Assembly (NCBI GenBank): GCA_903850425.1
Contig: CAINLR010000106.1
Span: 171,585-235,584 of the forward strand
DNA: 64,000 nt
Direction: 5' to 3'
Origin: an uncultured Verrucomicrobia subdivision 3 bacterium
GTDB lineage: Bacteria; Verrucomicrobiota; Verrucomicrobiia; Limisphaerales; UBA11358
Below are positions 7,187 to 58,414 of the stretch, in pieces; positions within the stretch are counted from its first letter, which is position 1, and each line of letters opens with the position of its first letter. The notes below the pieces were generated by a model. That model saw only the letters and a list, made by a program, of their open reading frames with translations. It had not been told where the DNA came from and did not search any database. Position numbers and translations under genes: made by a program.

Positions 7187-8794
7187 ATGAAAAATCTGAC
7201 CATTGGAAAACGCATCGCCTTGGGCTTTGCCGCTGTGCTCGTGCTCGTGGCCATTCTGGCCGTGGCCGCCGTGCTCTCATTGCGCACCATCCATAAAACC
7301 CTTCCCATGATCACGGAAGATTCCCTGCCGGGAGTCACCGCAATGGCCCAAATCGGCAGTTTGTCACAAGACATTCATATTGCCACCTTGAAGCACCGGA
7401 TGTTGACCAAGGCGGCGGATAAAGAGTCATGTGAACAGGATATCCAAGCCAAAGAACAGGAGTTAACAAAGCTAATGGAGGTTTACGCAGCGACCATCCA
7501 TCTGGAAGAAGACCGCCAAAACAACGGCCAATTAAAGGACGCATGCAATAACTACTTTAAAATCATCGGTCCATTGCTTGAGTTGAGTCGTGCGGGCAAG
7601 ACGGAGGAATTGGCGGATTACCGAACGAAGATTCTGCTTCCAACCGAACACACCCTCTCGGCGGTTGTCGCCAAGATGTTCAAATGGAATGCGGACTATG
7701 GTGTCGCCGGGGCGACGCAAATTGACCATGTCATCAACCAAGCCACGCTCATTATCTCCGTGCTTTCAGTAGCGGCGGTGCTGGTCGGCATCGGCTGCGC
7801 CTTCCTGATCGCCATCACGGTGGGCCGGGTGCTGGCGCGGGTTTCCGAAACACTAAATGAGGGTGCCAATCAAGTCGTCGGGGCGGCGAGTCAGGTTTCT
7901 GGTTCCAGTCAGAGTTTGGCCGAAGGTGCCAGCGAACAGGCCGCTTCAATCGAGGAAACCAGCGCGTCACTGGAAGAAATGGCCTCCATGACCAAGCGTA
8001 ATGCCGACAACGCCCGCAACGCCAATGATCTCGCCAAACAAGCACGCGAAGCCGCCGACAAAGGTGTGAACGACATGCAAACCATGTCCGCCGCCATGGA
8101 AGCCATCAAGGTTTCCAGCAATGATATTTCCAAAATCATCAAGACGATTGATGAGATCGCCTTTCAAACGAACATCCTCGCGCTGAACGCGGCGGTGGAA
8201 GCCGCTCGTGCGGGTGAAGCCGGCATGGGTTTCGCTGTGGTGGCGGATGAAGTGCGCAGCCTCGCGCAGCGCAGCGCGGCGGCGGCCAAGGAAACGGCGG
8301 ACAAGATTGAAGGTGCCATCATCAAGACCGGACAGGGCGTGGAGATCAACAGTAAGGTGGCGGCGGCCCTGAACGATATCATGACCAAAGTCCGGCAGGT
8401 GGACGAGCTGGTAACGGAAGTGGCCAGTGCCTCGCGGGAACAAACCGAGGGCATCACGCAGATCAACACCGCCGTGGGCCAGATGGACAAAGTCACCCAG
8501 AGCAATGCTTCAAATGCGGAAGAATGCGCCGCATCAGCCGAAGAATTGAATGCCCAAGCTGGGGTCATGAAGCAATCCGTGGGCGAACTGCTCAAACTGG
8601 TCGGCAGCACGCAGGTTTTCGCCGTTAGCCAGCAAGCAAGTCACGGCCGTCTGACCAAGGAAATTCGCCCCACTTCAGCTATCAAACGCGCATCGCCGGC
8701 CAATGGCAACGGGAACGGTCACCGCATACCAGCCATGACTACTGACAAAAGCCGGGAACAAATCCCGCTGGAAGGCGACTTCAAGGATTTTTGA
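7187..8794 (+). CDS. Methyl-accepting chemotaxis protein (paralogue of 4977-6620)
   Basis: Same start (M.NLTIGKRI) and signalling hairpin as the upstream MCP. Confidence 0.95.
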   Translation: MKNLTIGKRIALGFAAVLVLVAILAVAAVLSLRTIHKTLPMITEDSLPGVTAMAQIGSLSQDIHIATLKHRMLTKAADKESCEQDIQAKEQELTKLMEVYAATIHLEEDRQNNGQLKDACNNYFKIIGPLLELSRAGKTEELADYRTKILLPTEHTLSAVVAKMFKWNADYGVAGATQIDHVINQATLIISVLSVAAVLVGIGCAFLIAITVGRVLARVSETLNEGANQVVGAASQVSGSSQSLAEGASEQAASIEETSASLEEMASMTKRNADNARNANDLAKQAREAADKGVNDMQTMSAAMEAIKVSSNDISKIIKTIDEIAFQTNILALNAAVEAARAGEAGMGFAVVADEVRSLAQRSAAAAKETADKIEGAIIKTGQGVEINSKVAAALNDIMTKVRQVDELVTEVASASREQTEGITQINTAVGQMDKVTQSNASNAEECAASAEELNAQAGVMKQSVGELLKLVGSTQVFAVSQQASHGRLTKEIRPTSAIKRASPANGNGNGHRIPAMTTDKSREQIPLEGDFKDF

Positions 8795-13902: not shown

Positions 13903-13922
13903 ACCAGAGAGGAAAACATTCT

Positions 13923-14010
13923 ACATTCAACGCTCAACGCTCAACGCCCAAGTGCGCGCCGCGTGTGCGTTTCATTGAATGTTGGGCGTTGAATGTTGAC
14001 TGTTCGATGT
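13923..14010. repeat. Inverted pair of 7-bp tandem arrays
   Basis: Left ACATTCA ACGCTCA ACGCTCA ACGCCCA (13923-13950). Right arm, reverse complement: ACATCGA ACAGTCA ACATTCA ACGCCCA ACATTCA (13976-14010). Confidence 0.8.
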
Positions 14011-17000: not shown

Positions 17001-18205
17001 GCGAGGAATTCATCAACGCCTTTGATTACCGTGACCCGGAAGCAGTGGCGGGACAGCCGCTGGCGTTCGCATCGGAACGCGCGCGGTATCCGTTCGCGCA
17101 GAATCGCGACCTGCTGCGGTTCTCCGTCAAGACGGCGGCGGCGGGACGGGCGGCGGGACGCGCGTTGAACCTGGTTCTCCTGCTCGACAATTCCGGTTCG
17201 ATGGAACGCGCCGATCGCGTGCAGATCATCCGCGAAGCGTTGCGGGTGCTGGCCACGCAGTTGCACCCGCAGGACAAGGTGAGCATAGTCACCTTTGCGC
17301 GCACGGCGCGGTTGTGGGCGGATGGCGTGTCGGGCACGGACGCGGGCGCGGAGCTGGAAAAAATCGGCGGTCTCACGCCGCAGGGCGGCACGAATCTGGA
17401 GGAGGCGATGCGGCTGGCCTACGAAACGGCGCGGCGGCATTACCTCGCCAACGGCCTGAACCGCGTGGTGCTGCTCACCGACGGCGCGGCGAACCTCGGC
17501 AACGTGGACGCGGCGGTGCTCAAGGAAAAAGTCGAGGCGCAGCGCAAACAGGGCATCGCGCTCGACTGCTTCGGCATCGGCTGGGAAGGCTTTAATGACG
17601 ACACGCTCGAACAGCTTTCGCGCAATGGCGACGGGCGTTACGCGTTTCTCAATTCGCCGGAGGATGCGGCGAAGGAATTTGCCGCCAAGCTCGCGGGCGC
17701 GCTACAAATCGCCGCGTCGGACGTAAAGGTGCAGGTGGAATTCAATCCGCAGCGCGTGGTCTCCTATCGCCAGGTCGGCTACGCGAAACATCAGCTCACC
17801 AAGGAACAGTTCCGCGACAACACGGTGGACGCCGCCGAAATCGCCGCGCAGGAAGCGGGCAACGCGCTCTACACCGTCGAGACCAAACCAGACGGCAGCG
17901 GCCCGGTGGCGACGGTGCGCGTGCGCTACAAAGTTCCCGGCACGACGGACTATCGCGAGCGCAGTTGGGACGTGCCTTACACCGGCAATGCGGTTTCGCT
18001 CGCACAAGCCAGCGCGGCCATGCGGCTCGCGGCCACGGCCAGCGCGTTCTCGGAATGGCTCGCGGCGAGTCCGTTCGCGCAGGAAGTGTCGCCGGATGAA
18101 CTGCTCAAAACGATGAGCGGCGTGCCGCAGATTTATGGGGCGGATGAGCGGCCGAAGAAATTGGAATGGATGATCCGCCAGGCGAAGAGTCTGTCGGGGA
18201 AATAA
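14027..18205 (+). CDS. vWA domain protein with anti-sigma-like N-terminus and embedded Wzz/GNVR-like segment
   Basis: C-terminal vWA with MIDAS (LVLLLDNSGSMERADRV) and DUF3520/YfbK-like tail; central YDPYFVQTTFEIIQSDAVLGKVVEAL...DNPEEAAKIANAVADAYVKYR; N-terminal TM helix after a short acidic domain. Confidence 0.85.
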   Translation: MNPNQPSRDEIEAKLTALLLGELPDEEAKLLRWAITQDAELAKLHDRLKLAIGLVREVTVKPTETVPLKLSDERRKQLFAHFKTPRPHESFWLKRLELPSLIPVLAALAVVALLAALLLPSLASAKRKSTRVAALSSVRMQEMSAAYAAKDEALGQATSPALPPPVAITVAPEPTLAPPPTEIVLPSPDATSAGITAQTAPVVVQPSVVTRQLFAQQNGIGQNVAFGGSPSSATESPQAPATAAIILPQGEVRVEERMPGISGSERRPQLANGRPEAETLAKVGKPLYEMGKLKEFEAKLNSAVNGDGDNRSAAYYFDFANKAANKPEVDTLGRVAQVEKPLTPPAEDKLSRENKTAPDAESSRDHGMAVAGTVRGFYDDSVSGVQKGDVGVSGGSTFASRMDGFANGVSDINGGRGASGGGGGGAAPGSPSVELNLSRLQNELPAVAPVLKPNATLAGNDSGLDRARTENQPARFGRGFPLAGPIETAGEASPMSADSFGLADRSTDLNLRARKLAVKREGPERPTPMRATQETTAINNFDFNGEIAGTPTRAGGAERFFRNPAGEVTADKPPVLGDVPMLGKLFSSRASAPAKPMKGVLDDSDADGNLARVSKMTPLPGGSSVALGVPKEEGKDPVVYNFPTEPLRQRADLSFKLLDQAPTQPAPQVQTTNAIATAGLPMNTFDRAVVATTLPALAQKTEAGKADGDAAYQAAKQRRDQLVKQHELLYAKLAAESLDYEIPKTSMVQITDTAEPAKHQTLVQKLTGEYESNARIKVESDVNDIASMNGAQTAASSSYDPYFVQTTFEIIQSDAVLGKVVEALKLDQVWAGKYGGENLKKQDVIALLKKRLKLQPVRNTRLISIGVTSDNPEEAAKIANAVADAYVKYRRDSRVQLTAAATKRLEEQLNEQEQKVLLAQAEVDRLAKASGSEPVDVVALKPAANAPVPQPEIQASENAFSTFSLNVSDVSFKLAAASLEKGQMPDAASIRSEEFINAFDYRDPEAVAGQPLAFASERARYPFAQNRDLLRFSVKTAAAGRAAGRALNLVLLLDNSGSMERADRVQIIREALRVLATQLHPQDKVSIVTFARTARLWADGVSGTDAGAELEKIGGLTPQGGTNLEEAMRLAYETARRHYLANGLNRVVLLTDGAANLGNVDAAVLKEKVEAQRKQGIALDCFGIGWEGFNDDTLEQLSRNGDGRYAFLNSPEDAAKEFAAKLAGALQIAASDVKVQVEFNPQRVVSYRQVGYAKHQLTKEQFRDNTVDAAEIAAQEAGNALYTVETKPDGSGPVATVRVRYKVPGTTDYRERSWDVPYTGNAVSLAQASAAMRLAATASAFSEWLAASPFAQEVSPDELLKTMSGVPQIYGADERPKKLEWMIRQAKSLSGK

Positions 18206-45846: not shown

Positions 45847-47498
45847 GGTTGCGCCCGGAATTTTTGCGCCACCGGAATCCGCCGGCCCATGCCGAAGGCG
45901 CGCGGCGAAATCTTCAACGCCGGCGCGGCCTGCCGCCGTTTGTATTCGCTGAAATTCACCTTGTTCACCACGTCGTTCACCGTCACCGCCGCAAAACCGC
46001 GCGCGACGATCTCCAGTTTGCTCAAGTTCTTCACGACGTAACCATCCAGGATCGCGTCGAGCACCTCATACGGCGGCAGCGAATCCTGATCCGTCTGGTC
46101 TGGCCGCAATTCCGCGCTCGGCGGCTTGGCGATGGAATCGTGCGGAATGATTTCGCGGTCGCGGTTGACCCAGCGCGCGAGCTGGTAAATCTCCGTTTTG
46201 AAAACGTCCGCGATGGGTGCCAGCGCGCCGTTCATGTCGCCGTAAAGCGTGCAATAGCCGACGGCCATCTCCGATTTGTTGCCGGTCGTCAAGACCAGCG
46301 CGCCAAATTTATTCGACAGCGCCATCAACGTCACGCCGCGCAGCCGCGACTGGATGTTTTCCTCCGCCTCGTTCCGCTTCGTGCCGGCGAAAATATTTTC
46401 CAACTGCTTTTCCACCGCGTTGAACACCGGTTCGATGGGCAGCACTTCGTAACGCAGACCGAGATTTTTTGCCAGCAACTCGGCATCCGACAAACTACCG
46501 CTGCTCGAGTAGCGCGCGGGCATCGCCACACCGAAAACATTCTCCGCCCCGAGCGCCTCGGCCGCGAGCACCGCCACGAGCGCGGAATCAATGCCGCCGG
46601 ACAAACCGAGGATCACGGACTTGAAGCCGCATTTGCGAACGTAATCACGGATGCCCAGCGCCAGCGCGGAAAAAACCTGCGACTCGCGCGGAGGGAATTC
46701 CTTTTGAAGGTTGAAGGTTGAAGGTTGAATTTCCGACGCCAGTTCCACCACCAAGATTTCTTCCGCGAACCCTTGACCCAGCGCCAGCAATTCGCCGCTG
46801 GCATTCAGCGCCACGCTGTGGCCATCGAAAATTAATTCGTCATTCGCTCCGACCAGGTTCACCTGCGCCAGCGGGATTTTTTCGTCGCGCGCGACGCGCC
46901 GGAGCATCGCCAGCCGCGTCTTCTCCTTGCCCACGTTCCACGGCGACGCCGAGATGTTCAAAATGATTTCCGCGCCCTGCGCCACGAGTTCCTTCACCGG
47001 ATCGCGGCGATACAAGCGTTCCGGCCAGAAATCCTCGTCGTTCCAAATGTCTTCGCAAACGGTGATGCCGAGCCGGCGACCGTTAAAAACGAACGGCTCC
47101 ACTTTCTTGGCCGCCTCAAAATACCGGTCTTCGTCGAACACGTCGTAAGTTGGCAGCAGGCTTTTGTTTGTGCGCCAGATGATTTCGCCGTGCTGCAACA
47201 CGGCGGCGGCGTTGCGCAGCGCGCGACCGGGTCGCTCCGAGTTGGCATCCACAAAACCAACGCACAGCGGGACGGACCCGATCTGTTTGGCGGTGGCGGC
47301 GAGCGCCGCGAGATTGGCCTCAATGAAATCCGGCCGCTGCAGCAGATCGCGCGGCGGATAGCCGCAGAGAAAAAGTTCGGGCGCGAGGACAAATTCCGCG
47401 CCCTGGGCGACCGCCTGAGCGTAGGCGGCGACCAGCTTTTCGCGGTTGGCCGCGAAATCGCCGATGGTCGAGTTGAGCTGGAGCAGGCCGATTTTCAA
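45843..47498 (-). CDS. nadE: Glutamine-dependent NAD+ synthase
   Basis: N-terminal nitrilase domain (FVLAPELFLCGYPPRDLL); synthase domain VILGLSGGIDSALVAVLAAEALG...LVLTTGNKSEMAVGYCTLYGDMNGALAPIADVFKTEIYQLA. Confidence 0.96.
   Translation of the reverse strand: MKIGLLQLNSTIGDFAANREKLVAAYAQAVAQGAEFVLAPELFLCGYPPRDLLQRPDFIEANLAALAATAKQIGSVPLCVGFVDANSERPGRALRNAAAVLQHGEIIWRTNKSLLPTYDVFDEDRYFEAAKKVEPFVFNGRRLGITVCEDIWNDEDFWPERLYRRDPVKELVAQGAEIILNISASPWNVGKEKTRLAMLRRVARDEKIPLAQVNLVGANDELIFDGHSVALNASGELLALGQGFAEEILVVELASEIQPSTFNLQKEFPPRESQVFSALALGIRDYVRKCGFKSVILGLSGGIDSALVAVLAAEALGAENVFGVAMPARYSSSGSLSDAELLAKNLGLRYEVLPIEPVFNAVEKQLENIFAGTKRNEAEENIQSRLRGVTLMALSNKFGALVLTTGNKSEMAVGYCTLYGDMNGALAPIADVFKTEIYQLARWVNRDREIIPHDSIAKPPSAELRPDQTDQDSLPPYEVLDAILDGYVVKNLSKLEIVARGFAAVTVNDVVNKVNFSEYKRRQAAPALKISPRAFGMGRRIPVAQKFRAQP
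46704..46731. repeat. 7-bp tandem array inside nadE
   Basis: TTGAAGG TTGAAGG TTGAAGG TTGAATT; encodes QPSTFNLQ on the minus strand. Confidence 0.85.
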
Positions 47499-47546: not shown

Positions 47547-48755
47547 TCAGCCGGTAGTTGCCACGCTGCGGAGCGCGGCGGCCAGTTCCGCCAGGTGCTG
47601 CTCCATGGAGAACCGCGCCAGGAAATTCGCGCGCCCCTGCTGGCCACTTTTCACCGCGAGCACCTGCAAAATGGCCTCGGCGATTTTTTTCGGATCCTGA
47701 TCGTCCACCAGCCCGGGATAATTGGGCGGGAGCATTTCCGGCAGCGAACGCCAACGGGTCGTGACGATCGGCAGGCCAAAGGCCATGGCCTCGATGAGAT
47801 TGACCGGCTGGTTTTCACCAAGGTAGCGCGTGGGGAACAGAAACAGGTCGGAGGTGCGCAGTAGCTGGTCCTTTTGCGCGCCGGAAACGAAACCCAGGTG
47901 TTTGATGACGGCGGCGAACTCCGGGTTTTCCCGGAGCCGGTCGAACTCCGCCTGTTCCTCGGCCGTGACAAAATTGCCGGCCGTGGTGAGCTTCAATTGC
48001 ATCGGCAGATGGCGGGCGACGAGTTGGCGGTTGACCAGCAGCACGGCTTCGGCGGCGGCGAACAGGCCTTTTTCCCGCGTGCAGTGGGCGAGATACAAAA
48101 CCTGCACCGTGACGGGCGCGGCCGCGGTTTCCCCGGCAAAAAATTGGACGCGCCGGGCAAAGCGTTCACGGCGCTGCGGCAGGACGGCGGTTTCAAAATC
48201 CGGGCACGGGTCCGGAATGCCGTTGTTGACCACGCGGACGTGATGCGACAGCAGTTTCTCCGCATCGGCCACATTGTATTGCGAGAGGACGATGCTGAGT
48301 TCCACGGGCTGGAACAGCCGGTAAGTGATGGTGCGCGAGCCGATGGTGGTGGCCGTTTCCAGCCATTTCGCCAGGCCGGCCGCGTGCCAGTGCAGGATGA
48401 TGTTCTTGAAAAACGGGCGGCAGAGCAGCATGACCAGCCAGTCGCGGTAGAGCGCGACGTGCTTGCCGGGCGCAGGCACATAATAAAAATTGGTCACGCC
48501 GTAACGCAGCCGGACCCAGATGGCCTGCAGGCAAAACCAAAAGATAAGGAAGATCTTGGTGCCTTGAAATTCCCCGACGTCCGAGAGGCCGCGCGAGAAC
48601 CGGGCGTTGACGTGGTAGCATTCGATGCCCAGCGGGGACGGCGCGCTCGGTTTGTGCCAACGGCGGTCGCCGCCAAAGCCGGCGAGCATGAGTTGAACCA
48701 TGTAGCTCTGGCCGTGGTGCGGCGGTGGCGTGTGGGCGAAAACCAGCAATTTCAT
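47547..48755 (-). CDS. Glycosyltransferase family 4
   Basis: LLVFAHTPPPHHGQSYMVQLML...DLFLFPTRYLGENQPVNLIEAMAFGLPIVTTRWRSLPEML. Confidence 0.92.
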   Translation of the reverse strand: MKLLVFAHTPPPHHGQSYMVQLMLAGFGGDRRWHKPSAPSPLGIECYHVNARFSRGLSDVGEFQGTKIFLIFWFCLQAIWVRLRYGVTNFYYVPAPGKHVALYRDWLVMLLCRPFFKNIILHWHAAGLAKWLETATTIGSRTITYRLFQPVELSIVLSQYNVADAEKLLSHHVRVVNNGIPDPCPDFETAVLPQRRERFARRVQFFAGETAAAPVTVQVLYLAHCTREKGLFAAAEAVLLVNRQLVARHLPMQLKLTTAGNFVTAEEQAEFDRLRENPEFAAVIKHLGFVSGAQKDQLLRTSDLFLFPTRYLGENQPVNLIEAMAFGLPIVTTRWRSLPEMLPPNYPGLVDDQDPKKIAEAILQVLAVKSGQQGRANFLARFSMEQHLAELAAALRSVATTG

Positions 48756-48888
48756 TTACGATTTAGGATTTACGATTTAGGATTCACGGCCTGATGCTGA
48801 CTGCAAAAACGATCGCCCCCACACGGTTTGCACCGTGGCATGATCTGCCGACTTGCGTGGAAATCGTAGATCATCCATCGTAAATCGT
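48755..48888. repeat. Inverted pair of 7-bp arrays spanning a divergent promoter region
   Basis: Left TTTACGA TTTAGGA TTTACGA TTTAGGA (48755-48782). Right AAATCGT AGATCAT CCATCGT AAATCGT (48861-48888). Hairpin CACGG-TTTGCA-CCGTG at 48822-48837. Confidence 0.8.
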
Positions 48889-48890
48889 AA

Positions 48891-49655
48891 ATGACGAAGC
48901 GTGTCAATGTCCTCGGCGTCGGGATCAGCGTCCTTAATTTGCAGACGGCACTGGCCGCCATCACCGACGCGGTGCGAGCGCGGCGCAAGGGTTATCTCTG
49001 CATCACCGGCGTTCACGGCGTGATGGAGGCGCAGGACGATGTGGGCTTCAAAAATATTTTGAACCAGGCATTTCTTTGCACGCCCGACGGCATGCCCATG
49101 GTGTGGGCGGGAAAACTAAACGGCCATCGCGACATGCGCCGCGTCTATGGCCCGGACCTCATGCTGGACGTGTGCGCGTGGAGCGAAACCAGCGGCTGCA
49201 AACACTTTTTCTACGGCGGCGCGGCGGGCGTGGCGGAATTGCTGGCGCAAAAGCTGCAGGCAAAATTTCCGAAACTGACGGTGGTGGGCACTTACACGCC
49301 GCCGTTCCGAGCGCTCAACGCCGACGAACAAAATCAATTGCGCGAGCAAATTCGCGCCGTGCAGCCGGACATTTTGTGGGTGGGCTTGAGCACGCCCAAG
49401 CAGGAAAAATTCATGGCCGAATATCTGCCCAAACTGGAGGTGACGCTGATGGTTGGCGTGGGCGCGGCCTTTGACTTTCACAGCGGCCGCGTCAAGCAGG
49501 CACCGCGTTGGATGCAGCGCTCCGGGCTGGAATGGTTTTATCGTCTGTGCCGCGAGCCGCGCCGGCTGGCCAAACGCTACGGCCGCAACAACCCGCTGTT
49601 TGTCCTGAATTTTCTCGCCCAGTTGACGGGTCTGAAAAAATTCCCGAACCCGTGA
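48891..49655 (+). CDS. WecG/TagA/CpsF family glycosyltransferase
   Basis: VNVLGVGISVLNLQTALAAI...GVMEAQDDVGFKNILNQAFLCTPDGMPMVWAGK...VGLSTPKQEKFMAEY. Confidence 0.93.
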   Translation: MTKRVNVLGVGISVLNLQTALAAITDAVRARRKGYLCITGVHGVMEAQDDVGFKNILNQAFLCTPDGMPMVWAGKLNGHRDMRRVYGPDLMLDVCAWSETSGCKHFFYGGAAGVAELLAQKLQAKFPKLTVVGTYTPPFRALNADEQNQLREQIRAVQPDILWVGLSTPKQEKFMAEYLPKLEVTLMVGVGAAFDFHSGRVKQAPRWMQRSGLEWFYRLCREPRRLAKRYGRNNPLFVLNFLAQLTGLKKFPNP

Positions 49656-51169: not shown

Positions 51170-51235
51170 AATTACGCGAATTTGTTTGAGCAAATCGCGG
51201 GGTTTCGTTATCTCAATGCTGCCCGTTTGCAAACT

Positions 51236-52333
51236 ATGTCCGCCAACGAAACAAAAAAAACGCCGCCGATCCTGGGCTGGCTGTGGCCGCACGAAATCCC
51301 TTTTCTGGCGTTGCTCGGCTGGGCGCTTTACCAGGCCAGTCCCGAGTTCCGGGGCTCGCCGCTGCCGGTCATCCTCTTTGGCAGTTCGGTGGCGGCGGGC
51401 GTGGTCATGCTGGCCTTGCGTTGCCGCGACGAATGGCCGGGGTTGCCGAACAAATTTTTCTTTTTCAGCCTGGCCGGCGTGTGGGTGGCCCTGTTCATTT
51501 TGCTCGGCAATTCCACCTTCGGCTATCTCGACTCGAACTCGATTTTTTCGTGGGCCTTCGACACCTACACGGGCACGAATTCGGACAATGAATACAGCTT
51601 GTTCATCCCGTTCGTGGTGCTGGGCCTGTTCTGGTGGAAACGTGGCGAACTCACCGCGCAGCCGCTCGGCCTGTGGTCGCCGGGAATTGTCATCGTCGCG
51701 GTCGGCTTGCTCGCCCATCTGGTCGGCTATGTGGCGCAGCAGCCGCGCTTGTCGTTCATCGGATTTTTCATCGGCCTTTACGGACTGACCGGACTGGCGT
51801 GGGGCAAGCACTGGCTGCGGGCCAGTTTCTTCCCGTTCTTTCTGCTCGCCTTCTGCATCCCCTTCTTCGGCACAGACGCGCTGACGTTCCGCATGCGGCT
51901 GCTGGTGTCGTGGATTGTGGAACACATCGCTCACCTCGGGTTGGCCCCGGACTTGATCCGCGACGGCACGCAGTTGTTTGATGCGCAACGCACCTTCGGC
52001 TATGAAGTGGCGGCGGCGTGCAGCGGCATCCGCAGCCTCATCGCGCTGCTGGCGTTGACCACGATTTATGGCTTTGTGAATTTCAAGTCGCCCGCGAAAC
52101 GCGCGGTGATGATTCTGTCGGCCTTTCCGCTGGCGATTCTGGGCAACGTGCTGCGGTTGTGTTTCACCATCATGGTGGCCGAGACGTTCGGGCAAAACGC
52201 GGGGAAATCGGTCGAGACCAACGTGGGGTTCATCACGTTTGCCGTGGCCATCGCCGGCGTGTTCCTGCTGGCGCGCTGGCTGGAAAAAAGTGAAGTGAAA
52301 GCCGATTCGGAAACGAAAGCCGCCAACCCATGA
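51236..52333 (+). CDS. Exosortase/archaeosortase family protein
   Basis: Polytopic; catalytic-Cys motif AAACSGIRSLIALLAL and Arg motif AILGNVLRLCFTI; followed by EpsI. Confidence 0.88.
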   Translation: MSANETKKTPPILGWLWPHEIPFLALLGWALYQASPEFRGSPLPVILFGSSVAAGVVMLALRCRDEWPGLPNKFFFFSLAGVWVALFILLGNSTFGYLDSNSIFSWAFDTYTGTNSDNEYSLFIPFVVLGLFWWKRGELTAQPLGLWSPGIVIVAVGLLAHLVGYVAQQPRLSFIGFFIGLYGLTGLAWGKHWLRASFFPFFLLAFCIPFFGTDALTFRMRLLVSWIVEHIAHLGLAPDLIRDGTQLFDAQRTFGYEVAAACSGIRSLIALLALTTIYGFVNFKSPAKRAVMILSAFPLAILGNVLRLCFTIMVAETFGQNAGKSVETNVGFITFAVAIAGVFLLARWLEKSEVKADSETKAANP

Positions 52334-53055
52334 ACCGTCAAAAAATCATTTTAGCCGCCGTGGTGCTGGTGCTGGTCGGGGTGGTTGCCGGCGTGCTGGC
52401 CCGCACCAAATCCCACCAGAAACTGGGCGAGCCCGGGATCCAGACGCGGCCCCGGGCGGGCAGCAAAAATCTGGAAATCCTGCTGCCGGAAACCGCGCCG
52501 GGGTTTACGTCGGAAATTGTCACCAACGCCGAGGAAGTGCTGAAGGTTTTGCCGGCAGACACCAGCTTCCGGGTGCGTTTTTACAAGGCGGAGGATGGCT
52601 TCGCCGCGCAGGTGAGCGTGGTCTTGATGGGCACCGACCGCTCCAGCATCCACCGGCCGCAGATCTGCCTGACCGGCCAAGGCTGGGCCCTGGACAGCGC
52701 TCTTTCGGGAGTGGAGTCAATTCATCTGGAGCGTCCGTTTCCCTATGATTTGCCGGTCAACAAGCTCATCGCCACCAAACAGCTTCCAGGCGCGGATGGC
52801 CAGCTGCAAACCGCGCGGGGCATTTATATTTATTGGTTTGTCGCGGAGGATCATTACACCGCCAGTTCCGAGCAGTGGATGCTCTGGTGGATGCCGCGCG
52901 ACCTGCTGCTCCACGGCCTTCTCGAACGCTGGGCTTATATTTCCTACTTTTCCGCGTGCAGCCCGGGCCAGGAAGCGGCGACGTATGCGCGGATGAAGAC
53001 GCTGATGGCCGCCACCGTGCCGGAGTTTCAACGGGTGCCGCGCCCCGGCAAATGA
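52330..53055 (+). CDS. epsI: Exosortase-associated EpsI family protein
   Basis: VSVVLMGTDRSSIHRPQICLTGQGWALDS; ATGA overlap with the exosortase gene. Confidence 0.87.
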   Translation: MNRQKIILAAVVLVLVGVVAGVLARTKSHQKLGEPGIQTRPRAGSKNLEILLPETAPGFTSEIVTNAEEVLKVLPADTSFRVRFYKAEDGFAAQVSVVLMGTDRSSIHRPQICLTGQGWALDSALSGVESIHLERPFPYDLPVNKLIATKQLPGADGQLQTARGIYIYWFVAEDHYTASSEQWMLWWMPRDLLLHGLLERWAYISYFSACSPGQEAATYARMKTLMAATVPEFQRVPRPGK

Positions 53056-53118
53056 ATTGAATTTATCCGGCCAGCCACTAAACTCCGAACCTTAGGAAGA
53101 TAAAAGCAAGTAATCACC

Positions 53119-54516
53119 ATGCTACAACGCGACCGCCACATTCGCACCCAGATGCAACAAATGGGGGATGCCGGCATCTTTGCCTTGAGCTTCTGGCTGG
53201 CCTACGCGCTGCGCGGCACCCCCTGGTTTCTAGGCTGGTTTGGCTACGAGCCGCTCACGCCGGATGCCTTCGACAAGGTGGCTTGGCTTTACTTCGCGCT
53301 CGTGCCCGCCGCGCCCCTCGTGCTGGAATCCCAGGGCTTTTACAACCGCTCCGTGGTCGGTTCGCGCACGGCCATGTTGTGGCCGCTGCTCAAGGGCTGC
53401 TTTATCGTGACGATCGGTTTGGTGCTGCTCGTGTTCATGGTCCGGCAAATCATGCCGCGCGGCGTGCTGATTTATTTCGGCGTCATCAGCTTTCTGGTGG
53501 TGTGGATCAAAGAAGAATTTTTGCGGCTGGCGTTGCACAGCCGGCTCGCCCGCGAGCAATACAAACGCCGCGTCGTCCTCGCCGGCACGCTGGGGGAAAT
53601 CGCCCGGCTCCGTCAAATGCTCAAAAACCGGGCCAACGACAGCATGGAAGTCGTGGCGGAATTTGATCTCGCGCATGCGCCGGTGCCGAAACTGGTCGAG
53701 CTGCTGCACGAACATTCCGTCAGCGGCGTGTTTGTCAGCGCCAAAAACACGCAACTGGAGCGCGTGGAAAGCGTCATCCAGCTCTGCGAAATCGAGGGTG
53801 TCGAGGCGTGGCTGGTGGCGGATTTTTTTGCCACGCAGATTGCGCGCGCCAGTTTCGACGAGATGTTCGGCCATCCGCTGCTGGTCTTCCGCAGCACGCC
53901 GGAAGCCTCCTGGCAGATGCTCGCCAAGCTGCTGCTGGATTTCTTTGGCGCGCTGATTTTGATCCTCCTGGCCGCGATTCCGATGCTGTTCATCGCGCTG
54001 CTGATCAAGCTGACCTCGCCCGGCCCGGCCATTTTCCGCCAGCAGCGTTCCGGCCTGAACGGTTCGCCTTTCACCATCTTCAAATTTCGCACCATGGCCA
54101 CCAACGCCGAGCAGTTCAAACATGAACTGGCCGCGATGAACGAGATGACCGGACCCGTGTTCAAAGTCACCAACGATCCGCGCGTGACCAGCTTCGGGAA
54201 ATTTCTCCGCAAATTCAGCCTCGACGAACTGCCGCAGTTGTTCAATGTCCTGCGCGGCGAGATGAGCCTCGTCGGTCCGCGCCCGCTGCCCGTGGACGAA
54301 GTGAAGCGCTTCTCCGATCTGGCGCACCGCCGCCGCCTGAGCGTCAAGCCCGGCCTCACCTGTCTCTGGCAGGTCAGCGGCCGCAACGAGATTTCCGACT
54401 TCAAGGAATGGGTGCGCCTGGACCTGGAATACATTGACAACTGGTCCATCTGGCTCGATTTGCAAATCCTGCTGCGCACCGTCCCGGCCGTGTTTTTGGC
54501 GGCGGGCGCGAAGTGA
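53119..54516 (+). CDS. Exopolysaccharide polyprenyl glycosylphosphotransferase
   Basis: C-terminal sugar transferase: FKFRTMATNAEQFK...DELPQLFNVLRGEMSLVGPRPLPVDEV...VKPGLTCLWQVSGRNEISDFKEWVRLDLEYIDNWS. Confidence 0.95.
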   Translation: MLQRDRHIRTQMQQMGDAGIFALSFWLAYALRGTPWFLGWFGYEPLTPDAFDKVAWLYFALVPAAPLVLESQGFYNRSVVGSRTAMLWPLLKGCFIVTIGLVLLVFMVRQIMPRGVLIYFGVISFLVVWIKEEFLRLALHSRLAREQYKRRVVLAGTLGEIARLRQMLKNRANDSMEVVAEFDLAHAPVPKLVELLHEHSVSGVFVSAKNTQLERVESVIQLCEIEGVEAWLVADFFATQIARASFDEMFGHPLLVFRSTPEASWQMLAKLLLDFFGALILILLAAIPMLFIALLIKLTSPGPAIFRQQRSGLNGSPFTIFKFRTMATNAEQFKHELAAMNEMTGPVFKVTNDPRVTSFGKFLRKFSLDELPQLFNVLRGEMSLVGPRPLPVDEVKRFSDLAHRRRLSVKPGLTCLWQVSGRNEISDFKEWVRLDLEYIDNWSIWLDLQILLRTVPAVFLAAGAK

Positions 54517-54555: not shown

Positions 54556-54735
54556 TTATTGCACCAACGCCCTCGGGCCAAAAATCACGAACGGCTCAAA
54601 TGGCCGGTCCGGTTTGAATTTCCACCAGGCTACAAACCAGGTCCATGCCAGCGTGACGGGGCGTAAAAGTCGCAAACTGAAATTGCGGTGACGGCAGAAT
54701 TTATCGTAACTTACCCGTTCCAGGCGAAGTCTCAC
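54556..54735 (-). other. Coding-looking 59-codon antisense ORF or gene remnant
   Basis: GTG-started VRLRLERVSYDKFCRHRNFSLRLLRPVTLAWTWFVAWWKFKPDRPFEPFVIFGPRALVQ*; not on the supplied ORF track. Confidence 0.35.
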
Positions 54736-54747
54736 TGGAAGAATATT

Positions 54748-56007
54748 ATGGCTGAAAAATCAAACGGCGGCTGGTGGAAATGGATTTTGATCGTCGTGGT
54801 TTTCGCGGCGGGCATTGGCGGTTATTATTATTTCCGCCACGGTCGCTCGGAGCCGCTGAGTTTCACCGCGATGCCAGTAATGCGCGGCGAGCTGACCAAC
54901 ACCGTGACCGCGACGGGGATCTTGAATCCCGTGGTGAACGTGACGGTGGGCAGCCAGGTTTCCGGCCGTATCAGCAAGTTGAACGTGGATTTCAATTCGC
55001 CGGTGACCAAGGGCCAGGTGCTGGCGGAGATTGATCCGGCCAATTATCAGGCCACGCTCGAATCGGTCACGGCGGACCTCGCCAACGCCCAGGCGAATCT
55101 GGAGTTGCAGCAGGTGCAATACACCCGCAGCAGCGAGCTCTACACCAACAAGCTGATCTCCGGCTCGGACTATGACATCGCGCTGGCCACGCTGCACTCG
55201 GCCGAGGCGACGGTGAAAATCAAACAAGCCTCGCTCAACAACGCGCTGGTGAACCTGAGCTATTGCAAGATTGTTTCGCCGGTGGATGGCGTGGTGATTT
55301 TGCGCGCGGTGGAACTGGGCCAGACGGTCGCCTCCAGTTTCAACACGCCGACGATATTTCAAATCGCCAATGACCTGACGAAAATGCAGATTGACGCGAA
55401 CGTGGCGGAGGCAGATGTCGGCGGCATTCTCGAAGGGCAGAACGTGGATTTCGGCGTGGACGCCTATCCGAACCGGACGTTTCATGGCGAGGTGCGGCAG
55501 GTGCGCAATTCGCCCACGACCCTTAACAATGTGGTCACTTATGACGCGGTCATTAGCGTGACCAACTCGGATTACAAATTGAAGCCCGGCATGACGGCGA
55601 ATGTTTCCATCATTGTCGCGCAGCGGTCGGACGCGTTGAAGCTCCGGAACGCCGCCCTGCGTTTCCGCCCGCCGGAAGCCGCCGTGATGGTGACCAACGC
55701 GCCCGTGGCCGGCGCGCCCACGAATCAAGTCGCCGGCGGTCCGCGCGGTCCGCGCGGCGAACACGGTGAGCGGGGCCAAGCCCGGGGCAACCGCAATGTC
55801 CGCACGGTTTATTTGCTGGCGGGCGAGGAGCACAGTCCCAAGCTGCAACCCGTGCAGATCAAAACCGGCATTAACGACGGCATCTTTACCGAGGTCACCG
55901 AAGGCTTGAAAGAAGGCGACAAAGTGGTCGTTGGCGTTGTCTCCACCGATGCGACCGGAGCTCCGCAGTCCTCCAACCCGTTTGGCGGCGGCTTCCCGCG
56001 TCGCTGA
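54748..56007 (+). CDS. macA: MacA-like periplasmic adaptor (HlyD/RND-adaptor family)
   Basis: LTNTVTATGILNPVVNVTVGSQVSGRISKLNVDFNSPVTKGQVLAEIDPANYQA; alpha hairpin and beta-barrel segments. Confidence 0.92.
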   Translation: MAEKSNGGWWKWILIVVVFAAGIGGYYYFRHGRSEPLSFTAMPVMRGELTNTVTATGILNPVVNVTVGSQVSGRISKLNVDFNSPVTKGQVLAEIDPANYQATLESVTADLANAQANLELQQVQYTRSSELYTNKLISGSDYDIALATLHSAEATVKIKQASLNNALVNLSYCKIVSPVDGVVILRAVELGQTVASSFNTPTIFQIANDLTKMQIDANVAEADVGGILEGQNVDFGVDAYPNRTFHGEVRQVRNSPTTLNNVVTYDAVISVTNSDYKLKPGMTANVSIIVAQRSDALKLRNAALRFRPPEAAVMVTNAPVAGAPTNQVAGGPRGPRGEHGERGQARGNRNVRTVYLLAGEEHSPKLQPVQIKTGINDGIFTEVTEGLKEGDKVVVGVVSTDATGAPQSSNPFGGGFPRR

Positions 56008-56017
56008 TCTAATTGCC

Positions 56018-56782
56018 GTGTCAACCCGCCCCGTCATCCAGCTCGCGAAAATCCACAAGGTTTATCGCACCGGCGAAGTGGACGTCCACGCCGTGCGCGG
56101 CGTGTCGCTGGACATCTTGCCCGGCGAATTTGTGGCCATCATGGGCTCCAGCGGCTCGGGCAAAAGCACGTTGATGAACATGATCGGCTGCCTCGACCGG
56201 CCGAGCGAGGGGAATTATCTACTGGATGGCATTGACGTTTCCACGCTGGATCGCGATGCCCGCGCGAAGATCCGCAACGACAAGATCGGCTTTGTTTTTC
56301 AGGGGTTCAACCTGCTCTCGCGCACGTCGGCGCTGGAGAATGTCGAGATGCCGATGCTTTACAATCATGCGCGCGTTTCAGCGGTGGAGCAAAGGGAACG
56401 CGCCCGCAAATCGCTGGAGTTGGTTGGCCTGGCGGATCGCTCGGATCACAAACCCAACCAGCTTTCCGGCGGGCAACAGCAGCGTGTGGCCATCGCGCGA
56501 GCGCTCGTGAACCAGCCGTCGCTGCTCCTCGCCGACGAGCCCACGGGCAACTTGGACAGCCAGACGAGCATTGAAATCATGGGCGTGTTTCAGAAGCTCA
56601 ACGCGGCCGGCATCACGATTGTCATGGTCACGCACGAGCTCGACGTGGCGCGCTACACCAAGCGCACGGTGATTTTGCGCGACGGGAAAATTCTCACGGA
56701 TGAAACGGTCAAAGACCGGCTGAATGCGGAGGGCGAACTGAAGAAATTGCGGCAGGCGCAGGAGGCCGTGAAACTGGCTTAA
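56018..56782 (+). CDS. MacB-type ABC transporter ATP-binding protein
   Basis: [26 protein letters not shown]...[36 protein letters not shown]; likely GTG start at 56018. Confidence 0.94.
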
Positions 56783-57196
56783 AGGATGAAGCTTGAATGA
56801 TGAATGATGAAAAGGAGAATTTGCGGGAGCGGACAAAAATGTTCGCGCGCCGGATTGTTCGACTTTACTGCGCGTTGCCGAAAAGCGACGCGGCGGCGCA
56901 GATCCTTGGCAAGCAAGCGCTGCGTTCCGGCACTTCGATTGGCGCAAATTACCGCGAAGCTTACCGCGCCAGATCGAAGGCGGAATTCATTTCCAAGATT
57001 GGAGACTGCCTGAAAGAAGCCGACGAAACACTTTACTGGCAGGAATTGCTGCTGGACGAAAATTTCGTTTCCGCGCGAAAGTTGGAGCCGTTGATGAAGG
57101 AAAACGATGAACTGCTCGCCATTCTGACCACGATCTCCAAACGCGCCAAAGGCCTCGAATGAGCGCTTCGTCTTTCATCCTTCATCTTCCATCCTT
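56782..57196. mobile_element. Candidate minimal mobile cassette: four-helix-bundle gene bounded by inverted 7-bp arrays
   Basis: Left AAGGATG AAGCTTG AATGATG AATGATG (56782-56809). Right, reverse complement: AAGGATG GAAGATG AAGGATG AAAGACG (57169-57196). It lies between the ABC ATPase and permease genes. Confidence 0.5.
56797..57162 (+). CDS. Four-helix-bundle protein (S23 / 23S rRNA intervening-sequence family)
   Basis: FARRIVRLYCALPKSDAAAQILGKQALRSGTSIGANYREAYRARSKAEFISKIGDCLKEADETLYWQELL. Confidence 0.93.
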   Translation: MMNDEKENLRERTKMFARRIVRLYCALPKSDAAAQILGKQALRSGTSIGANYREAYRARSKAEFISKIGDCLKEADETLYWQELLLDENFVSARKLEPLMKENDELLAILTTISKRAKGLE

Positions 57197-57205
57197 CGCC
57201 AAAGC

Positions 57206-58414
<1,209 letters not shown>

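Follow-up and report, generated by a model that had tools for sequence, protein, structure and literature searches.

The closest known system to the element described here is the intervening sequence (IVS) of 23S rRNA genes, described for decades as a selfish element whose origin is unclear. IVP ORFs also occur in rRNA insertions of CPR bacteria. According to the accessible text of the report on Coxiella burnetii, the 23S rRNA IVS of this species is approximately 0.43 kb long and carries one S23p/IVP ORF and terminal inverted repeats with a 28-bp stem (PMC4990558). This IVS sits within the rRNA, from which RNase III cuts it out, and tandem GACAGAT heptamers lie ahead of the ORF in a strain-dependent copy number (PMC4990558). 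That description covers one element and places the heptamers on its 5' side alone, and the accessible portion of the paper does not state them as a rule for the family. Tandem heptamers, including TAACTGA, have also been reported from Beggiatoaceae, Cyanobacteria, and Bacteroidetes as 7-nt arrays between genes, in many cases directly ahead of start codons (PMC4679880). These TAACTGA-type heptamers and the cyanobacterial STRR heptamers resemble the arms of the cassette reported below in being short intergenic 7-nt arrays. The TAACTGA-type heptamers, however, are described as direct repeats of one unit, and the accessible text links them neither to four-helix-bundle genes nor to an inverted partner array (PMC4679880). 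A search of the open-licence literature returned no statement of a rule joining the gene to inverted arrays outside rRNA, and a link between the protein and an array only for Coxiella.

We analyzed a window of 64,000 nt from an uncultured Verrucomicrobia subdivision 3 bacterium. A cassette with a single four-helix-bundle gene interrupts a MacB-type operon in this window (Table 1). By direct reading, the ATPase stop codon TAA occupies positions 56780-56782, and the 5' heptamers are AAGGATG (56782-56788), AAGCTTG (56789-56795), AATGATG (56796-56802), and AATGATG (56803-56809). The sequence-only reading had these four 7-mers begin on the last base of the stop codon, which is exact to the base. 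It also had a heptamer supply the start codon of the four-helix-bundle ORF, and the ATG (56797-56799) indeed falls within the third heptamer. On the other side, the inverted units are CGTCTTT (57169-57175), CATCCTT (57176-57182), CATCTTC (57183-57189), and CATCCTT (57190-57196), whose reverse complements are, in order, AAAGACG, AAGGATG, GAAGATG, and AAGGATG. This array had been placed about 10 bp ahead of the permease ATG, and 9 nt separate its end from that codon at 57206. Both arrays are detected by TRF, and the two arms (56782-56811 and 57167-57196) show 77% complementarity. The locus has no match in Rfam. Genes for an exosortase (EpsH), a DUF3485 protein, and a bacterial sugar transferase are located directly upstream of the mac operon, at 51182-54516.

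Table 1. Features of the four-helix-bundle cassette and its host operon in the window.
Feature	Position	Strand	Remarks
Membrane fusion protein (MFP)	54688..56007	+	PF16576 3.1e-21
ABC ATPase, MacB-type operon, intact	56018..56782	+	PF00005 9.8e-36; GTG start at 56018 is putative
Whole cassette	56782..57196	+	415 bp, between ATPase stop and permease start
5' arm	56782..56811	+	30 nt; four heptamers to 56809; purine/G-rich; first base doubles as the third base of the ATPase stop codon
Four-helix-bundle gene (23S_rRNA_IVP, PF05635; TIGR02436)	56797..57162	+	121 aa; start codon within heptamer
3' arm	57167..57196	+	30 nt; four inverted heptamers 57169-57196
MacB-type permease, intact	57206..58414	+	PF12704 6.6e-52, PF02687 2.4e-20

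The window element resembles the 23S rRNA IVS in that an IVP ORF lies in approximately 0.4-0.5 kb between terminal inverted repeats, with end heptamers like those given for Coxiella in the accessible text (PMC4990558). Unlike the rRNA IVS, it is located in a protein operon and not in an rRNA helix. The cassette protein matches Pfam PF05635 (1.2e-18, 67.7 bits; curated cut-off 33.8) and TIGR02436 (8.9e-25, 87 bits; cut-off 24). The protein is homologous to PDB 2rld (3.4e-22), a solved pentamer-forming member, and the entries 2gsc (XCC0516) and 2rld contain five chains each. To our knowledge, PF05635 proteins have no known function. The window's own genome encodes nine PF05635 genes, and family members occur in 45 of 49 genomes of the genus and in 100 of 145 genomes sampled from the phylum, many of the sampled genomes resembling draft or metagenome assemblies. 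PF05635 resembles Avd, the accessory protein of diversity-generating retroelements (PMC10053308). The fold is homologous, and weak matches to an Avd model were obtained for L001 and L061 (31 bits for the best relative), while the window protein has no match to the Avd model NF033474 (cut-off 80 bits). Unlike Avd systems, the window operon contains no reverse transcriptase, and many family-rich genomes have no RVT_1 match.

Heptamer periodicity was scored in the flanks of other four-helix-bundle genes. Best lag-7 scores around 38 PF05635 genes from the genus average 10.6 on the upstream and 11.3 on the downstream side, every other lag from 4 to 12 scores 3.3-4.2, and 285 control genes from the window's own genome have lag-7 scores of 4.0 and 4.2. 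Scores of at least 10 on both flanks were obtained for 42% of the genus family members versus 0.35% of the control genes, which places the periodicity far above the control-gene background. In genus elements, arm complementarity is 17.7 for an element's own arms versus 9.2 for arms swapped between elements. By eye, eight of the nine PF05635 genes in the window's own genome have short-period arrays on both sides, differing in sequence and mutually inverted; none were seen at the ninth, L009. The proposal that the family is mobile or repeat-associated should accordingly be limited to most of its members. Approximately 30 strong lag-7 arrays are present in the 464-kb sample that served as own-genome background, and with heptamer arrays so frequent in such genomes the gene might have come to lie between two of them by chance. 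This explanation can be given virtually no credence and is already refuted by the contrast with the control genes and by the same arrangement in many phyla. A reverse scan of the 464 kb found only two inverted lag-7 pairs with a spacing of 200-900 bp, each of which encloses a PF05635 gene.

The same arrays were found at 30 loci of the phylum, where some elements have 8-nt units on both sides. For 80 loci from other phyla, which were selected with a conserved peptide pattern and assigned to phyla from record titles, the mean lag-7 scores are 14.0 upstream and 13.1 downstream, and for 18 loci on viral contigs they are 15.4 and 8.6. Other lags in these two sets score near 4-5.6. The phyla named in the 80-locus set include Planctomycetota, Acidobacteria, Bacteroidetes, Chloroflexi, Nitrospirae, Cyanobacteria, Proteobacteria, and Patescibacteria. 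A score of at least 9 is reached by 103 of 160 element flanks versus 48 of 1385 other windows of the same loci. The flank period is mostly 7 bases, sometimes 8 or 9, with hardly any other lags. None of the 80 surveyed loci from other phyla overlaps an rRNA model, a further difference from the 23S rRNA IVS. The architecture of the gene between inverted arrays is general, from the genus and the phylum to many other phyla and viral contigs.

Anatomy was tabulated for 171 elements, with counts pooled without phylogenetic weighting and neighbour genes called from the longest ORFs. The median cassette length is 463 bp, with a median of 4.3 units per arm. Arm complementarity scores reach at least 15 in 144 elements, and the G-skew of the 5' arm is positive in 132 and negative in 11. 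The 5' arm starts at a median of 1.5 nt from the upstream stop codon. The upstream neighbour is co-directional in 104 of 129 elements and both neighbours are co-directional in 81 (63%, versus 35% for control genes). Arm-to-arm identity is 0.84 in register versus 0.74 after a shift by one unit, and unit shuffling lowers the match, indicating that the arms match unit by unit and not merely in their repeat. When 124 period-7 elements are aligned by phase, two adjacent positions show A at 0.82 and G at 0.91. In 76 of the 124, at least 80% of the units have the dinucleotide AG at one fixed phase, compared with 38 elements for GA (which overlaps AG) and one for CT. The Coxiella unit GACAGAT, as given in the accessible text, reads AGATGAC after rotation, i.e., AG-N5 (PMC4990558).

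These features could also be explained at the RNA level. The pentamer would bind its own mRNA at the AG-N5 array of the 5' leader, pairing of the arms would hide the start codon in a stem, RNase III would process the transcript, and the patchy distribution would result from ordinary loss and transfer. TRAP, which reads spaced NAG triplets, provides an analogy. The start codon inside the array of the window, the fixed phase of AG, the agreement between 4.3 units per arm and the five subunits suggested by 2gsc and 2rld, the pairing of the two arms in the predicted RNA fold (z -2.7), and the location of the cassettes in operons are all consistent with it. We nevertheless consider it unlikely. Selection for a sense-strand RNA stem, considered as a candidate in itself, was rejected, because the expected excess of G.U pairs is absent from the sense-strand arm mismatches of the 171 elements (167 G.U versus 232 A.C). 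In addition, the AG signal, strong in other phyla, is weaker in the window's own genus, period 8 arose many times on the protein tree, and mini-cassettes described below retain arms without the gene. The AG rule itself cannot discriminate between RNA and DNA, since an inverted repeat puts the AG array on both strands. That the protein subtype sets the period was also considered and rejected: period 9 corresponds to one clade, but period 8 needs approximately 15 changes on the protein tree. The period is thus loosely tied to the protein, and any reading of the array by the protein would require flexible spacing.

Among 28 readable mac operons of the genus, the ATPase/permease junction is cassette-free with overlapping stop and start codons in 19 and has a 6-7 nt spacer in two (G018 and G011), so that empty sites joining the two genes exist in relatives, as expected under the sequence-only reading. 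An insert of 413-425 nt with the gene is present in six operons (G000, G019, G012, G001, G026, and G025), and an unrelated 175-nt insert with a G+C-rich inverted repeat in one (G020, L054). In G019 only, the overlap ATGA is seen on both sides of the insert in a target-duplication-like manner, although both genes need the doubled overlap anyway. The arms of the mac inserts vary by species yet stay complementary (within-element 20.5, cross-species 15.5). The six-taxon ATPase tree alone is too weak to reveal a conflict, and the ATPase and permease data (1968 nt) were therefore used for the host tree. These data reject a clade of G000 and G001 (p-AU 0.0002), whereas the cassette gene tree joins the two with 99% bootstrap. 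The cassette gene rejects both ATPase-derived host topologies tested (lnL difference 59-60), and clade tests with this short gene alone are borderline, with p-AU 0.052 for the mac A/P copies and 0.046 for all mac copies.

The window gene's relatives at other junctions share 66-79% protein identity with it. The subfamily is also located at the MFP/ATPase junction in G036 and G013, instead of the ATPase/permease junction, and 27 of 28 arm bases match by eye in the G013 cassette. Further copies lie within a paralogous mac operon in G033 and, in G013, G021, G048, and G004, at a heptosyltransferase junction. Near-identical copies within one genome were not seen; the subfamily copies are approximately 62-81% identical in DNA, suggesting that movement is old or rare. 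Repeated occupancy of one junction could be partly due to homologous junction transfer between species. Relatives do not all have the gene at one place, and the periodicity around family members is far above background, two outcomes that leave the mobile reading of the cassette standing.

The heptosyltransferase junction was compared in 30 genomes. Five have empty overlaps (G014, G019, G034, G005, and G047) and three have full cassettes (G013, G048, and G004), with G021 as a fourth. Most others have spacers of 64-159 nt, many of which are ORF-less hairpins (64-103 nt) and some of which lack clear arms. The units of these mini-hairpins vary by lineage and include GATGAAG, GAATGAA, GGTTCAG, GTGACGA, and a 10-nt CACAGAT type. 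The within-element match of the mini-hairpins is 13.1 versus 7.3 across species, which together with the lineage-specific units indicates that ORF-less forms exist and that both arms change together. Arm matches within elements exceed those between species at mac, L001-type, and mini-hairpin sites. That the arms evolve in strict concert was rejected as a general rule: it holds at L001-type, L063-type, and mini-hairpin sites, but at mac the two arms resemble each other about as much as orthologous 5' arms do, and less so when close relatives are compared.

Such hairpins might be a mutational by-product, growing and homogenising by replication slippage in steps of 7-9 nt and by quasi-palindrome template switching, with the four-helix-bundle gene as a passenger able to tolerate the loop. 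The window's own genome and the heptosyltransferase junction have ORF-less hairpins with periodic arms of 7 to 10 nt, which would fit this explanation, as would arms that are corrected in register and switch unit together and a period that varies without tracking the protein. Against it, arrays at cassette distance enclose only this gene family (both pairs in the 464 kb), loops of 400 nt are long for template switching, an AG core common to many phyla is unexpected from slippage, and most short hairpins in the window's own genome have the opposite polarity, with the C-rich arm first. We regard this origin as quite improbable, more so than the RNA-level explanation.

Empty, full, and ORF-less states are found at orthologous junctions, and one subfamily occupies several unrelated junctions. 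Mobility is supported by the empty and filled sites, by the presence of the same subfamily at several sites, and by the conflict between host and cassette trees. We therefore think it probable, if well short of certain, that the window unit is one representative of an IVS-like cassette of very wide distribution, which acts as a slowly moving, non-autonomous element at gene junctions within operons. The sequence-only reading had proposed a non-autonomous cassette with the arrays as its ends; the occupancy states and the tree conflict favour this, although no transposition event was seen. Under the preferred mobile-element reading, the cassette would typically settle starting at the stop codon of the upstream gene. 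The arrays would be the element ends, recognised by the putatively pentameric four-helix-bundle protein, given that AG often occurs once per unit and each arm has approximately 4-5 units. Pairing of the arms in the mRNA may make the insert tolerable or allow its excision, in the way that RNase III removes rRNA IVSs, and strand exchange would be provided in trans by a separate enzyme. ORF-less mini-cassettes may be deletion derivatives of full cassettes.

REP/REPIN elements, which depend on Y1/RAYT transposases, and MITEs are short intergenic inverted-repeat elements mobilised in trans. The cassette is MITE-like in its terminal inverted repeats and in the empty sites in relatives. It contains no recombinase. 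The trans-acting recombinase that the sequence-only reading suggested searching for was not identified among the reverse transcriptase, Y1, and DDE counts examined in the phylum genomes. Per-genome PF05635 counts correlate with those of Y1 transposase (Spearman 0.61), weakly with RVT_1 (rho 0.30), and not significantly with DDE_Tnp_1 (0.14), which served as a control, in the phylum sample (G000 and G049-G192) with genome size and phylogeny uncontrolled. A reverse transcriptase was rejected as partner, being absent from many family-rich genomes, including one with 18 copies and no RVT_1 match. Y1 transposase is kept as a lead only: the counts correlate, but the flanks of genus Y1 transposase genes, although inverted, lack the lag-7 signal, and the cassette differs from REPIN/RAYT systems in this respect.

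Across related species the cassette gene appears at gene junctions and disappears from them, and it looks like a widespread, largely overlooked kind of mobile element. A rule of one gene with inverted arrays of 7-9 nt units, with empty and ORF-less forms and outside rRNA, unites the S23/IVP family, the rRNA IVS, and tandem heptamer repeats. A bolder proposal, which we offer tentatively and think more likely wrong than right, is that the S23/IVP pentamer forms a ring reading AG every 7 (8 or 9) nt, one per subunit. It would be the recognition protein of domain-wide hairpin elements, both gene-bearing and ORF-less, and much unexplained bacterial tandem heptamer DNA and the rRNA IVSs would be its traces.

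Other short-period repeats were also observed in the window and its genome. Hairpins of the AACATTC/GAATGTT type, with no gene inside and the C-rich arm first, are located at window 13915-14004, L010:4685-4780, and L014:15055-15153, and further ones at L015:7253-7348 and 8306-8382 and at L027:8177-8268 and 18043-18139. Their polarity is opposite to that of the four-helix-bundle cassettes, and they apparently represent a separate repeat class. A perfect TTGAAGG array of 3.7 units (window 46704-46729), with no inverted partner noticed nearby, lies apparently inside a minus-strand coding region. Inverted ATTTACG/ATTTAGG arrays with a 77-nt loop (window 48752-48894) lie apparently between divergent genes and resemble the ORF-less hairpins. 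Hairpins with 10-nt (CACGGATNNA) or 9-nt (ACGAAATAC) arms are present in the window's own genome at L019:11705-11869, L018:18527-18673, L024:9295-9404, and L014:3919-4002, indicating that the inverted-array design is not confined to 7 nt.
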